DNA of 64,000 nt from Pseudobdellovibrionaceae bacterium (GCA_019637915.1 JAHBUV010000001.1:558001-622000), one strand, 5' to 3'; positions 1,793 through 6,242 are shown, numbered from the stretch's first letter. A program made the numbers and translations. The notes: generated by a model from the sequence alone, not told the origin.

Positions 1793-2026
1793 TCAATGCG
1801 TCCAGGCCGGGGGATCGCTGGCCGGAAAGGATTCCCAGGAGGCCTCGTCGACCGGGTCGATCCTCTCCTGTCTCGACTCCGTCTCGCGTTCGGCTTGTGG
1901 CTCGACACGATTCTCCGGAGGAGCGATCACGAGCACCGAGGGCCGTGAGTCTTTCTTCCAGGCGGCATACAACAAAGCGCCGAGGGTCATGAAGAAAAGG
2001 GGCTCGCGCCAGAAACTGTTTTTCAT
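1793..2026 (-). CDS. Small single-TM protein ending in an ESFPASDPPAW motif
   Basis: A 77-residue protein with one hydrophobic segment near the N-terminus (FFMTLGALLYAAW, about residues 9-21), a charged disordered middle rich in Glu and Arg, and a C-terminal block DEASWESFPASDPPAWT. That block recurs at the end of small uncharacterised bacterial proteins; its function is unknown to me. The start at 2026 is chosen because GGGGAGGTGG lies just upstream; an upstream in-frame ATG at 2080 has no such site and would add an unconvincing extension. Likely an inner-membrane-associated protein. It follows a 53-residue Gln/Asn-rich gene on the same strand and may be co-expressed with it. Confidence 0.7.
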   Translation of the reverse strand: MKNSFWREPLFFMTLGALLYAAWKKDSRPSVLVIAPPENRVEPQAERETESRQERIDPVDEASWESFPASDPPAWTH

Positions 2027-2048
2027 TTTCCACCTCCCCAAGAAGAAA

Positions 2049-2069
2049 GAAGGAGCGCGAAGCCCCTTC
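2049..2069 (-). terminator. Candidate hairpin between two tiny genes
   Basis: GAAGGAGC (2049-2056) pairs with GCCCCTTC (2062-2069) with one mismatch and a 5-base loop. Read on the minus strand it is followed by a pyrimidine-rich run, CTTTCTTCTT. It lies between the stop of the upstream Gln/Asn-rich gene and the ribosome-binding site of the downstream gene, so it may attenuate rather than fully terminate. Confidence 0.35.
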
Positions 2070-2086
2070 TTTCCTGTCAAACGACG

Positions 2087-2248
2087 TCAAGACCGCTTGT
2101 TGCCGGGTGCTTGCTGCTGATTGGCCTGTTTGCCGCTTGTTTGCGAGGCGTTCTTGGAGTTTTGATTGCCGGAGACGGGCTGATTCATTTTTTGATTCTG
2201 GCTCGTCTGTTTCTGTTGATTCTGCGGGGCGCTCTTTTTGTTGTCCAT
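2087..2248 (-). CDS. 53-residue basic Gln/Asn-rich disordered protein
   Basis: The predicted peptide has 13 Gln, 9 Asn, 7 Lys and one Arg in 53 residues, a single acidic residue (Asp2) and no aromatic or cysteine residues, so it is expected to be fully disordered and basic. The start at 2248 is supported by AGGAGG four bases upstream (AGGAGGTCCTATG), which is among the strongest ribosome-binding sites in the window and argues that the gene is real. I recognise no family. Nucleic-acid binding or a stress or stationary-phase role would fit the composition but is speculation. Confidence 0.6.
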   Translation of the reverse strand: MDNKKSAPQNQQKQTSQNQKMNQPVSGNQNSKNASQTSGKQANQQQAPGNKRS

Positions 2249-2337: not shown

Positions 2338-2679
2338 TCACCCGCCCGGCTTGTTTTCCTGATCCCGGGCTTTGAGAAGTGCCGCGCGACAGGCGGCCTG
2401 AAGGGAGTTTTCATTTTCACGAAGGCAGGGTTCCACGCTCTCCGATTTTTTCCGCAGGCAACCCAGGCGACGGACATCCGCCTGGCAAACGCGCAGCACC
2501 TGCAAACGGGAGGACACCACCGCCCGGGGAAGTGGCGGTGGCGGCGCCTCGGGCATGGGCGCGGGCGCGGACGTCAGGCCCGTCCGGGCGACGATCAGCC
2601 CGCCGATCACTCCTCCCATCAAACCGCTCATCATGAAGAAGGCCGCCAGGGCCAGGGGGTGTTTCAGGATGTTCATCAT
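2338..2679 (-). CDS. Small membrane-anchored protein, translationally coupled to the fibre gene
   Basis: A 113-residue protein with a hydrophobic, glycine-rich N-terminal segment (LALAAFFMMSGLMGGVIGGL, about residues 6-25), a proline-rich linker (PAPMPEAPPPPLP), and a C-terminal domain with four cysteines (VCQADV, GCLRKK, PCLREN, ACRAAL) spaced as if forming disulfides in a periplasmic helical hairpin. The start codon overlaps the stop of the upstream fibre gene by one base (TGATG), with a second ATG three bases later. That tight coupling suggests it serves the fibre, for example as an anchor or chaperone; this is inference, and no family is recognised. Confidence 0.72.
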   Translation of the reverse strand: MMNILKHPLALAAFFMMSGLMGGVIGGLIVARTGLTSAPAPMPEAPPPPLPRAVVSSRLQVLRVCQADVRRLGCLRKKSESVEPCLRENENSLQAACRAALLKARDQENKPGG

Positions 2680-5600
2680 CAGTACCGACGCACGCAACGG
2701 ACGTTTTTACTGCTGTTCTTCAAAGCTTCCGTGACCGTCATATTGCCCAGGTCGATATAGACCGCCTGGCTGTTGTCCACGCTGGTCTGCGAAGCCACCC
2801 AGTAAGATGCGGTGGTGGGGAGATGGCCCGCCAATCCCATGCTCGCCGTGACCCCCAGGTAACCGCAGATGGTGGCCGCGGCCACACCATAGACATTGCA
2901 AACGAAAATATAAGACTCGGCCGCGGTCGGAAGATACCAGTCCGAGTAACCGCCGAACACCATGTCTTCGCAATAGCGGGCCGCCTGGTGCGGACCGCCC
3001 TGGGCCGGAGCCGTCACCGCCGCGATCAGGGCGGAGGACGCGGGGCCTTCCATCATCCCGGTGACGATGTCATCCACCCCCGTGAGGAAAGCATAGTTGG
3101 TGGTGCCGTTGTTCCACGTTTTCGAGATGTTCTCCGAACCATCTCCGTTGCAGGTGGGGTTGGTTGTCGAGTTCGTGCAACCGGACGGCATGATCATGTA
3201 GCGGTATCCATAAGCGGAACCGGCGTAAATCGATCCCCCTTCACAGGCCGTGCCCGCGGGTGAGCCGTGTTGATAACAAGGATCCACCGATCCCAGGGAG
3301 TAGCCGGCTTCCACCAGCCACTGGGTTCCGTTGCTCACCAAAGTGACGCTGTCATACTGACTTTTCAGGGTTTTCGTCTCGAAGCCGTCGATCTTCTGGG
3401 TGGAGTGCCCGTCCAGGATGACGTTCGCGGCGCCCGAGCCCGTGCGTTTCACCGCGAAGCGGAAGCCGCTGGGCACGGTGCCGACATCCGGCAAGGTCAG
3501 GGTGGCCGCCGCCGTCACGATGAACATCTTGCCGGCATCGGCCGAAGTCAGGGTCTGAGAGGAGGAGATCGTTTGCAGGGTCCATCCGGCTCCCCCACCG
3601 CCGCCCGACCATCCCGTCGAGATGTCATGGCAGTTGTTCCCGGTTTCATCGCAGATCTGCTCAGCGCGGATCGTGCCCGCCACATCCAAGGTCGATTGCG
3701 GATCGGTGCGGCCGATCCCCAACCGACCCGTGTTGGTCAGGGTCATGCGGCTGTCGGTGAGGGCGACGTTGCTCCCGTCCGTCAAAGAGCTCATCAAGAA
3801 ATGCAGGTTGCCGATGCCGCCGTTGGACGTGCGGTTGAAAACGATCCCGGACTTGTAGTTGGTGTCGCCGCTCGTTGAAGCCACTTTGAAGGCCATCCCC
3901 GTCGAAGAGCCGTTGACCGCATCCAGGTTTTGCATGCGGACAGGCAGGCTCAGACCCGACACCTGGCGGGCCACATGCAGGGCGCCGGCGGGCGTCGTCG
4001 TTCCGACGCCGACGTTCAAAGTGAGCGAATCCAAAGCCATGGCGATGCCCCAGCTCGAGCCGTTCCAATGGGACATCAGCAGATCGTTGCGCTGCTCGGC
4101 GGTACCGTAGGCGTCGCCGCGACCGACGAACTCCCACCCTTTGGTGGTGGCGTCGAAGTTGTCGTTGCCCGTGCCCTTGGTGATGAAATTGATGTTCGCC
4201 GATTGATTGGCGGTGGCGCCCGTGACGCTGAGTTGAATGGCGGAACTGGCGTCGGCGGATTCATGCAGCGTCAACTGCCGGAAAGGCGTCGTGGTGCCGA
4301 TCCCGACTTTGCCGTTCAGGAGGGTGGAGCCCGTGCCGCTGGGAGTGAGGGTGATGTTTTGATTGCCGCCGCCCGCCGCGAAGGTCAACGCCCCTGAACC
4401 CGTGATGGAGCCATCATTCGTGCCCGTCCCACCATGGGCGATCGGCAAAACACCGGACACATCCGACGTGAGATCGATGGAGTTCTTGGCGGCGATACTG
4501 CCGATCGTGCCAAGATCACTCACTTGGGACTTCGTGATCGAGATGTCCTCACAAGTCACCCGGTCCGGAACGGATTGCCACTTTACGGTCTTCCCCGCCC
4601 CGCAAGCACTGAAGTCAAAGGTGCTGTTGCCGGCTGAGTTCTTGATGTCGCCGATGTCGATCAAGGAACTTCCCCACACCCCACTCGTGCGCTTCAGGAA
4701 ATGCCCGTCCGTGCCAGATGGTGTATCCATCTTGCCATTGAAGGCATCATACTGCGCTTTACTGATGAGACCAGCAGACACACCCGTTTGATCGGCCATC
4801 GGAATGCTCAACGTGTGAGTCGCCGAACCATGAGCCCACGTGAGGCTCGTGCCCGTCGTGTTCACGGCCAAGCTTTGAGCGGAGTCCGAGAGGCCATTGA
4901 TGGTGGCAATGCCAGATCCTGAAGCACCGGCCGTGAAGTACTCCCATTTTTTTGCCGTGTTATTCCACTTCAAGGACTTGCCGTCTTCCGTGGCCGTCGG
5001 TGGCGCGGCTCCCGCGACTTCCTGCACACCAGTGCCATCCCAAAGGCTCAAAGCCTTGCGGTCCGAATTCCACCACACAGAGCCTTGATGTCCACTCGCT
5101 AAGGGCGAAGCCACCAGAGCCGTCTCTTGAACATCTGTCAGCGCCCCGAAGCGCAAAGTCTTTTGCGCGTTCAAAGACACATGCCCAGCGTTTAGCACAT
5201 CATAACCACCGAGCTTCAGATCTCCCGCCATCGTGCCAGAACCATCCAGCGGAAGCTTCGTGTTGTCCGTGCCGCCACCGCCTGAAGGAGTCACGCAATC
5301 CCAGGCACCAGAAGTCACACCCAAAACTTCCCCGTCCGAGCATTTCGCAAAACCCTCAAAGGCCGAGCCATCGGACTTCGACATGATGATCTGGCTGTTA
5401 CCGATCGTGGAAATCCCCGTCCCACCATGAGCAATGGGAAGAGTTCCGGCATTGATGTCAGAGGCATTGTGATTGTGAGCCGAAGGAGCGAACGTGGAAG
5501 GCTTGCCCGTGATGTCCGTCCAAGCCGGAGCGGCAGCCGCCGGCAGGATCGCCCACGTGCCATCGCCACGCAAGTAGGTCGTGCCACTGGCGGTTCCCGT

Positions 5601-6242
5601 GGGACTCCAGGCGGCCAGAGTGCCAAGACCCGGATAGGTGCCGTTCAGAATGGAATCCAAAGTGGCATAGCGCGAATACACGCTCTCCACGCGCGCCTGC
5701 TGGATATTGGCGGACGTCTGCACGAAGGCCGAGGCCGATTTGCCGGACAGGTTTTCCGCGTTCACCGCGAAAGGCGTCGTGCGCAAATTGAAATCGGCCG
5801 TGATCACATCACTGTTCGCGAGAGTCATGCTCACACGCACTTTGCGCGCGTCATTCGCACCCGGCGTGTAGGAGGTGAGACCGCCATTCACCGACCCATC
5901 CGGGTTCAAACAAACAAGGCCCGTCTTCGGCACCGCCGTGTTGTCCGCCATCTTCTGGAAATTGGCCCCGACGGGTTGCTGCGAAGCCGGCGTGCCCTTG
6001 CCCACCACCAGATTCAGATAACCATCCGTCACCGTGACGGAAGAGTGATTCTCGTCCCACAGCACGCAATCATTGGGCGACAAGATCTTCACGTTCACCG
6101 TGAGACCCGATTCCGTCAAAAGGGTCGTGTCCGGCTTCGTGATGCGGCCCTGGAACGTGAGGCCCTGCGAGCTTTGCGCCTTCACAGAAGGTGCACAAAT
6201 GAGAATGAGAAGGGCCGTGACGGCCGTGCAGAAAACTCTCAT
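2679..6242 (-). CDS. Secreted tail-fibre-like adhesin (mosaic adhesive trimer-like) with C-terminal DUF1566/Lcl-type domain
   Basis: This 1187-residue protein starts with a signal peptide (about 1-22). A head domain (about 24-165) leads into a long shaft with phage-tail-fibre features: PIAHGGTG turns near residues 270 and 597, Gly/Ser/Thr/Asn-rich beta segments, and TLDVAGTIRAEQICDETG near 855. After a beta domain (about 890-985) the tip (about 990-1187) has the DUF1566/Lcl pattern: cysteine-rich, GGYSDWYLPTAAE, SYWVASQ, and a terminal VRCVRRY. This architecture matches the trimeric fibres described in Bdellovibrio as mosaic adhesive trimers, whose variable tips bind prey or other surfaces. 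I infer a surface or vesicle-borne adhesin. There is no clear ribosome-binding site upstream of the ATG. The next gene overlaps the stop and may encode a partner. Confidence 0.82.
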   Translation of the reverse strand: MRVFCTAVTALLILICAPSVKAQSSQGLTFQGRITKPDTTLLTESGLTVNVKILSPNDCVLWDENHSSVTVTDGYLNLVVGKGTPASQQPVGANFQKMADNTAVPKTGLVCLNPDGSVNGGLTSYTPGANDARKVRVSMTLANSDVITADFNLRTTPFAVNAENLSGKSASAFVQTSANIQQARVESVYSRYATLDSILNGTYPGLGTLAAWSPTGTASGTTYLRGDGTWAILPAAAAPAWTDITGKPSTFAPSAHNHNASDINAGTLPIAHGGTGISTIGNSQIIMSKSDGSAFEGFAKCSDGEVLGVTSGAWDCVTPSGGGGTDNTKLPLDGSGTMAGDLKLGGYDVLNAGHVSLNAQKTLRFGALTDVQETALVASPLASGHQGSVWWNSDRKALSLWDGTGVQEVAGAAPPTATEDGKSLKWNNTAKKWEYFTAGASGSGIATINGLSDSAQSLAVNTTGTSLTWAHGSATHTLSIPMADQTGVSAGLISKAQYDAFNGKMDTPSGTDGHFLKRTSGVWGSSLIDIGDIKNSAGNSTFDFSACGAGKTVKWQSVPDRVTCEDISITKSQVSDLGTIGSIAAKNSIDLTSDVSGVLPIAHGGTGTNDGSITGSGALTFAAGGGNQNITLTPSGTGSTLLNGKVGIGTTTPFRQLTLHESADASSAIQLSVTGATANQSANINFITKGTGNDNFDATTKGWEFVGRGDAYGTAEQRNDLLMSHWNGSSWGIAMALDSLTLNVGVGTTTPAGALHVARQVSGLSLPVRMQNLDAVNGSSTGMAFKVASTSGDTNYKSGIVFNRTSNGGIGNLHFLMSSLTDGSNVALTDSRMTLTNTGRLGIGRTDPQSTLDVAGTIRAEQICDETGNNCHDISTGWSGGGGGAGWTLQTISSSQTLTSADAGKMFIVTAAATLTLPDVGTVPSGFRFAVKRTGSGAANVILDGHSTQKIDGFETKTLKSQYDSVTLVSNGTQWLVEAGYSLGSVDPCYQHGSPAGTACEGGSIYAGSAYGYRYMIMPSGCTNSTTNPTCNGDGSENISKTWNNGTTNYAFLTGVDDIVTGMMEGPASSALIAAVTAPAQGGPHQAARYCEDMVFGGYSDWYLPTAAESYIFVCNVYGVAAATICGYLGVTASMGLAGHLPTTASYWVASQTSVDNSQAVYIDLGNMTVTEALKNSSKNVRCVRRY

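Follow-up and report, generated by a model that had tools for sequence, protein, structure and literature searches.

A mosaic adhesive trimer fibre with an Lcl-type tip in a Pseudobdellovibrionaceae bacterium, and its counterparts at diversity-generating retroelements of related genomes

According to our analysis, the gene at positions 2679-6242 (-) of a 64,000-nt stretch of a Pseudobdellovibrionaceae bacterium genome (GCA_019637915.1 JAHBUV010000001.1:558001-622000; hereafter the window, in whose full length all coordinates are counted) very probably encodes an adhesin of the mosaic adhesive trimer (MAT) family, whose DUF1566/Lcl-type, C-type-lectin-like tip binds a ligand on the prey surface and which arose by tip exchange. 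The family membership, the order of the domains and, by model, the fold of the tip are established here; trimerisation, surface display and ligand binding of the window fibre we infer from the characterised MATs and from Lcl. In the mechanism that we propose, a Sec signal peptide would export the fibre, the conserved MAT N-terminal domain would be placed at the predator surface, and the C-terminal tip would be held out by a trimeric shaft, beta-helical and furnished with tail-fibre elements and capping loops. With a face close to its C-terminal end the tip would bind its ligand on the prey surface, a glycan being the likeliest; the DUF1566 tip itself would have been acquired by exchange on a shared shaft. 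The most valuable lead comes from outside the window, namely the link of such fibres with diversity-generating retroelements (DGRs) in relatives. In what follows, G labels denote genomes (G000 being that of the window), L labels denote loci, and C1 is a contig of G000; the features are collected in Table 1.

With 119.4 bits, against a cut-off of 60, residues 14-177 of the fibre fit the NCBIfam model NF053851 ("mosaic adhesive trimer family chimeric fiber protein"); they lie within an open reading frame (ORF) of 1187 codons that was found exactly as the sequence-only reading had described it. Profile searches detected the MAT N-terminal domain in 101 of the 141 genomes of the order, in up to 29 copies per genome, and in none of the 14 control genomes; the named relatives sharing it are mostly Bdellovibrio sp., Bdellovibrionaceae bacterium and Oligoflexia bacterium. 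Five such domains exceed the NF053851 cut-off in G000, which has additional fibres in L014, cut by the contig start, and in L016, whose divergent N-terminal domain falls below the cut-off. The "phage-tail-fibre turns" formerly noticed in the shaft were recovered as a tail-fibre-like element at residues 235-284, in which the R2-pyocin/phage tail fibres 6cl5, 6ct8 and 6cl6 match residues 240-284 (phmmer, E ~1e-7) and PHROG minor tail proteins match as well, and as three capping-loop motifs, against 0.09 expected from shuffled sequences. No S74 peptidase/chaperone C-terminus was found in the fibre, Pfam finding Lcl_C alone, which places it in the NS74 group of MATs. With the members of this group in Bdellovibrio bacteriovorus (PMC10769870; NF053851), above all Bd2740, it has in common the signal peptide, the MAT N-terminal domain and a beta-helical shaft with capping loops and an exchangeable tip. 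It differs from Bd2740 in its length (1187 versus 627 residues), in the overlap of its gene with the ORF of a small membrane protein, and in the DUF1566/Lcl_C signature of the tip, DUF1566 being unmentioned in the main text of the MAT paper (PMC10769870).

The tip begins around residue 987, near the residue 985 given by the sequence-only reading, and its presumed DUF1566 pattern is recognized by Pfam as Lcl_C at residues 1085-1185 (hmmscan, E 4e-8), with 33.9 bits in that search, just below the curated cut-off of 34.9, and with 37.7 bits, above the cut-off, in the search of the G000 genome. Furthermore, when 15 DUF1566 tips of the order were aligned, the profile matched the C-terminal domain of Legionella Lcl (Lcl-CTD, 8q4e) with E 9e-14. 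Residues 975-1187 were modelled with AlphaFold2 (mean pLDDT 67, pTM 0.73); the model is closest to the same structure (Foldseek E 3e-4; Z 10.4 and 3.3 A for 121 residues) and, at Z 10.3 and 2.0 A for 100 residues, to the B. bacteriovorus MAT tip Bd2740 (8oks), so that the window tip has a fold described before for MATs, in a sequence that has diverged. About 20 snake-venom and NK-receptor C-type-lectin domains appeared in the fold search with Z 6-7.7; they have the common fold only, and we draw no ligand from them. The earlier proposal, a mosaic fibre like the MATs of Bdellovibrio whose tip resembles Lcl, is therefore upheld by NF053851, by Pfam Lcl_C and by the profile and fold matches.

The MAT N-terminal domain and a DUF1566 tip are combined in one protein in G001 (same genus), G020, G023, G046, G052, G057 and G104, and within G000 the fibres of L014 and L016 likewise end in DUF1566; the architecture is thus a class and not a singleton. 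The novelty that had been ascribed to the window fibre is reduced to that extent, since at least six further genera of the order share the architecture and the solved tip Bd2740 has the same fold. Direct evidence of mosaicism is provided by the paralogue L015 (C1:931-933 kb), whose protein is 78% identical over residues 6-767 and carries a different tip, the DNA identity of ~82% breaking off at about residue 650, together with an 89-bp block just upstream of the tip module, which shares 93% identity with the fibre gene of L014, where contig C1 begins. As far as the sequences tell, tip swapping on a shared shaft is real, and the 89-bp block is a possible recombination joint; the interchangeable tips that had been postulated are found in this paralogue, with another tip on a shared shaft. 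The third fibre of G000 (L016:4373-7690, G000:C1:3.01 Mb) has a divergent DUF1566 tip, and in L173:5878-13888 two long MAT fibres stand in tandem and overlap at their ends, each carrying an FGE-like C-type-lectin tip (RGG.W ... GFRCA).

DUF1566 is a frequent target domain of DGRs (PMC6642488), and the related MAT fibres of the order have this domain in common with the DUF1566/C-type-lectin variable proteins described there. We were able to identify DUF1566-tipped MAT fibres that come with a second copy of their 3' end in G104 (L160), G046 (L148) and G057 (L150), and such a repeat beside a MAT fibre whose C-type-lectin tip is FGE-like in G015 (L158, the same as L169; Oligoflexia bacterium BroJett040); all four fibres pass NF053851. 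In L160, L148 and L158 the template repeat lies together with genes for a small Avd-type protein and for a reverse transcriptase, one Avd being confirmed by Pfam bAvd (7e-16) and one reverse transcriptase by PF00078 (2e-15); reverse transcriptase matches adjoin the remaining DGR loci, and an Avd-like ORF follows the L150 fibre. The mismatches between template and variable repeats fall at template A in 7/7 cases in L160, 12/12 in L148, 8/8 in L150 and 13/13 in L158. In G001, the genus-mate, a fibre cut by the contig end (L161:9801-10919) is 81% identical to the L158 fibre and has its own DGR, with 10/10 mismatches at template A; the corresponding figures are 8/8 in L149, 16/17 in L159 and 12/12 in L164, three loci in which the MAT domain is missing or truncated. 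To judge by these repeats, DGRs target MAT fibres that bear DUF1566 or other lectin-like tips in at least four related genomes. In G104, G046 and G057 the variable region is the DUF1566 tip itself, as expected of a ligand-recognition face, and it maps to about residues 1150-1185 of the window fibre, which we predict to be the ligand face there. A DGR variable protein would be expected to have a reverse transcriptase in its genome; G000 has no match to PF00078, which is found in 47 of the 141 genomes of the order. The window fibre was consequently rejected as a DGR target, and its copy is regarded as fixed. We favour, with some reserve, the view that the C-type-lectin-like tips (DUF1566, FGE-like) of MAT fibres are hypermutated by DGRs in predators, yielding an evolvable prey-recognition repertoire, and that the window fibre would be a fixed, retroelement-free member with a fibre-specific membrane partner. 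No paper linking DGRs with the prey-recognition fibres of Bdellovibrio was found in the literature searched, subscription papers and supplements being outside it.

The putative partner is encoded by the 113-residue ORF that overlaps the fibre stop, and the ORF, the TGATG overlap and the four cysteines (here residues 65, 74, 85 and 97) named in the sequence-only reading are all present, as is one hydrophobic segment (residues 13-31), in keeping with the membrane protein named there. The AlphaFold2 single-sequence model is poor overall (pLDDT 61) and has helices at residues 52-71, 82-88 and 90-108, with pLDDT ~70-83 there. What did not hold is the reading of fibre and partner as a conserved pair: no partner homologue stands beside any related fibre examined, an absence that the sequence-only reading had itself named as grounds for refutation, and no similar small gene lies downstream of the ~45 MAT or MAT-like fibres inspected. 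No homologue was detected in 60 relatives, nor any convincing one in 369 genomes of the phylum, weak matches in G038, G123 and G138 being rejected since they cover the Pro-rich linker or do not have the partner's pattern of cysteines. The whole protein matches no family in Pfam, PHROGs or NCBIfam; its C-terminal part alone gives a sub-threshold PET191-like Pfam match (E 0.024), and kinship with Cys-rich-repeat or CHCH proteins was considered from the cysteine spacing.

This want of homologues and of similar genes next to other MAT fibres is what one would expect if the 113-residue ORF were a chance or unrelated gene with no part in fibre function, a serious alternative, though less likely than not. 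It is countered by a codon usage of 0.23 bits/codon, which falls inside the true-frame range and exceeds that of the other five frames; because the distributions of true-frame and wrong-frame scores overlap, codon usage supports the gene without proving it. The organised topology of transmembrane segment, Pro-rich linker and four-Cys helical domain also speaks for a gene, and we regard the partner as a real-looking orphan ORF. A further argument against a chance overlap is that several other MAT or MAT-like fibres overlap or nearly touch different envelope genes. Gly-rich secreted proteins follow the fibres of L014 and L175, a similar one coming after a MAT fibre in L180; secreted proteins, with or without DUF1566, follow those of L088 and L082; and the L084 fibre (G024; 3221-5161, -) overlaps by TAATG a 145-residue protein with a transmembrane segment, a Pro-rich part and pentapeptide repeats (Pfam E 7e-15), that is, a small membrane protein built differently from the window partner. 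Coupled partners thus seem recurrent in kind and variable in identity. Tentatively, and with considerable doubt, the partner could be taken as an inner-membrane-tethered periplasmic accessory that helps to fold, hold or export this fibre.

Some of these loci deserve mention in their own right. L014:1-4107 (G000:C1 start) holds a DUF1566-tipped fibre overlapping, via TGATGATG, a glycine-rich secreted protein of 295 residues, which may act as a tip protein in its own right, much like gp38 of T-even phages. At L088:4800-5810 (-) the overlapping next gene encodes a secreted protein ending in DUF1566, as if the tip were a separate chain, and in L082, downstream of position 4930, the overlapping next gene also encodes a secreted protein.

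As for the ligand, the sequence-only reading had proposed glycan or collagen-like ligands on the model of Lcl. Lcl-CTD is C-type-lectin-like and trimeric according to its authors, and the collagen-like repeats of Lcl are its stalk, collagen being no ligand of it (PMC11162425), so that a collagen-like ligand is not supported. The window fibre and Lcl (C-terminal domain 8q4e; PMC11162425) both have DUF1566 at the end of a stalk and a C-type-lectin-like fold; however, the window fibre has a MAT N-terminal domain and a beta-helix-type shaft instead of a collagen-like stalk, and cysteines are conserved in these DUF1566 tips whereas Lcl-CTD is without disulphides. The homology of the tip to Lcl-CTD, by sequence and by modelled fold, would suit an adhesin that, like Lcl, binds sulphated glycosaminoglycans, or else some other ligand of a eukaryotic host, a reading which we nevertheless hold to be improbable. 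The Lcl ligand residues R342, K369, K380, K385 and K391 correspond to positions in the window tip that are non-basic or doubtful, at most one of the five having a basic counterpart when the alignments are read by eye; the tip has 8 K+R against 14 D+E; and no Pfam collagen match was found in the fibre, the shaft being of the MAT type. Since the basic ligand residues are not kept, one should not presume that the fibre binds the sulphated glycan of Lcl, and a glycosaminoglycan-type ligand, as formerly proposed, retains weak support.

A tail fibre of a prophage or tailocin is still harder to credit, because the likeness to pyocin and phage tail fibres at residues 235-284 and the resemblance of phage DUF1566 proteins to the tip are outweighed by the Sec signal peptide, by a MAT N-terminal domain absent from the control genomes, and by neighbours (ComM, XerD-like recombinase, SpoIID and lipoprotein-like genes) among which no tail or baseplate genes were seen. 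To the right of the fibre, the genes at 8.7-13.3 kb (xerD-like, lipoprotein-like, SpoIID) and ComM are syntenic in G001, where other genes follow ComM and the fibre block is absent; the fibre therefore occupies a variable site, as for an accessory, exchangeable gene.

Against the interpretation as a prey-binding MAT adhesin with a coupled partner weigh the modest confidence of the tip model, a monomer whose pLDDT is below 50 at its start; the placement of the host near Bdellovibrionaceae through the names of relatives only, the predatory habit of the organism being presumed; and the partner, which has no homologue and whose putative role is read from position, topology and cysteines.

If the prey-binding MAT adhesin is accepted, the locus bears on prey-range recognition by Bdellovibrio-type predators, an open question for which the MAT fibres are the best candidates and to which DUF1566-tipped MATs add a directly testable class of tips. 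DGR targeting in relatives links prey recognition to the mechanism of host change in Bordetella phage; the variable region points to the residues (~1150-1185 in the window fibre) expected to touch the ligand, and predators of this group may re-tune what they bind through deliberate mutation of the tip. Coupled small envelope proteins, as fibre-specific assembly factors, would bear on the surface delivery and anchoring of MATs, left open by the MAT paper.

Table 1. Features of the fibre gene and of the overlapping ORF in the window
Feature	Position	Strand	Evidence or remark
MAT-family fibre gene, 1187 aa, secreted	2679..6242	-	ORF; NCBIfam NF053851 Bdello_MAT_N
Sec signal peptide, residues 1-22, MRVFCTAVTALLILICAPSVKA followed by QS	6177..6242	-	sequence; hydrophobic peak at residue 3
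MAT N-terminal domain, residues 26-167	5742..6167	-	profile matches across the order; NF053851
Pyocin/phage tail-fibre-like element, residues 235-284	5391..5540	-	phmmer; PHROG
Shaft segment common to the paralogue at C1:931-933 kb	4293..6179	-	DNA 81.6% identical, likeness stops at ~residue 650
Capping-loop motif VGIGTTTPFRQL, residues 646-657	4272..4307	-	motif of PMC10769870
Capping-loop motif VGVGTTTPAGAL, residues 744-755	3978..4013	-	motif of PMC10769870
Capping-loop motif LGIGRTDPQSTL, residues 841-852	3687..3722	-	motif of PMC10769870
89-bp block, possible recombination joint	3598..3686	-	93% identity to L014 fibre gene
Tip domain, residues 987-1187, C-type-lectin-like fold	2682..3284	-	AlphaFold2 model, fold matches 8q4e and 8oks
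Lcl_C/DUF1566 homology, residues 1085-1185	2688..2990	-	Pfam PF07603
Counterpart of DGR variable region, ~residues 1150-1185, predicted ligand face	2688..2795	-	variable-region positions in L160, L148, L159, L149; alignment
TGATG stop/start overlap, fibre to 113-aa ORF	2677..2681	-	sequence
Coupled ORF, 113 aa, orphan	2338..2679	-	overlaps fibre stop via TGATG
Partner transmembrane segment, residues 13-31	2587..2643	-	hydrophobic segment
Partner Pro-rich linker, residues 35-52	2524..2577	-	sequence
Partner four-Cys helical domain, residues 60-108, C-x8-C-x10-C-x11-C	2356..2502	-	sequence; AlphaFold2 single-sequence model

On the 3' side of the partner lie two small ORFs without family matches, at 1793-2080 (-) and 2087-2248 (-), the first of which ends in DEASWESFPASDPPAW.

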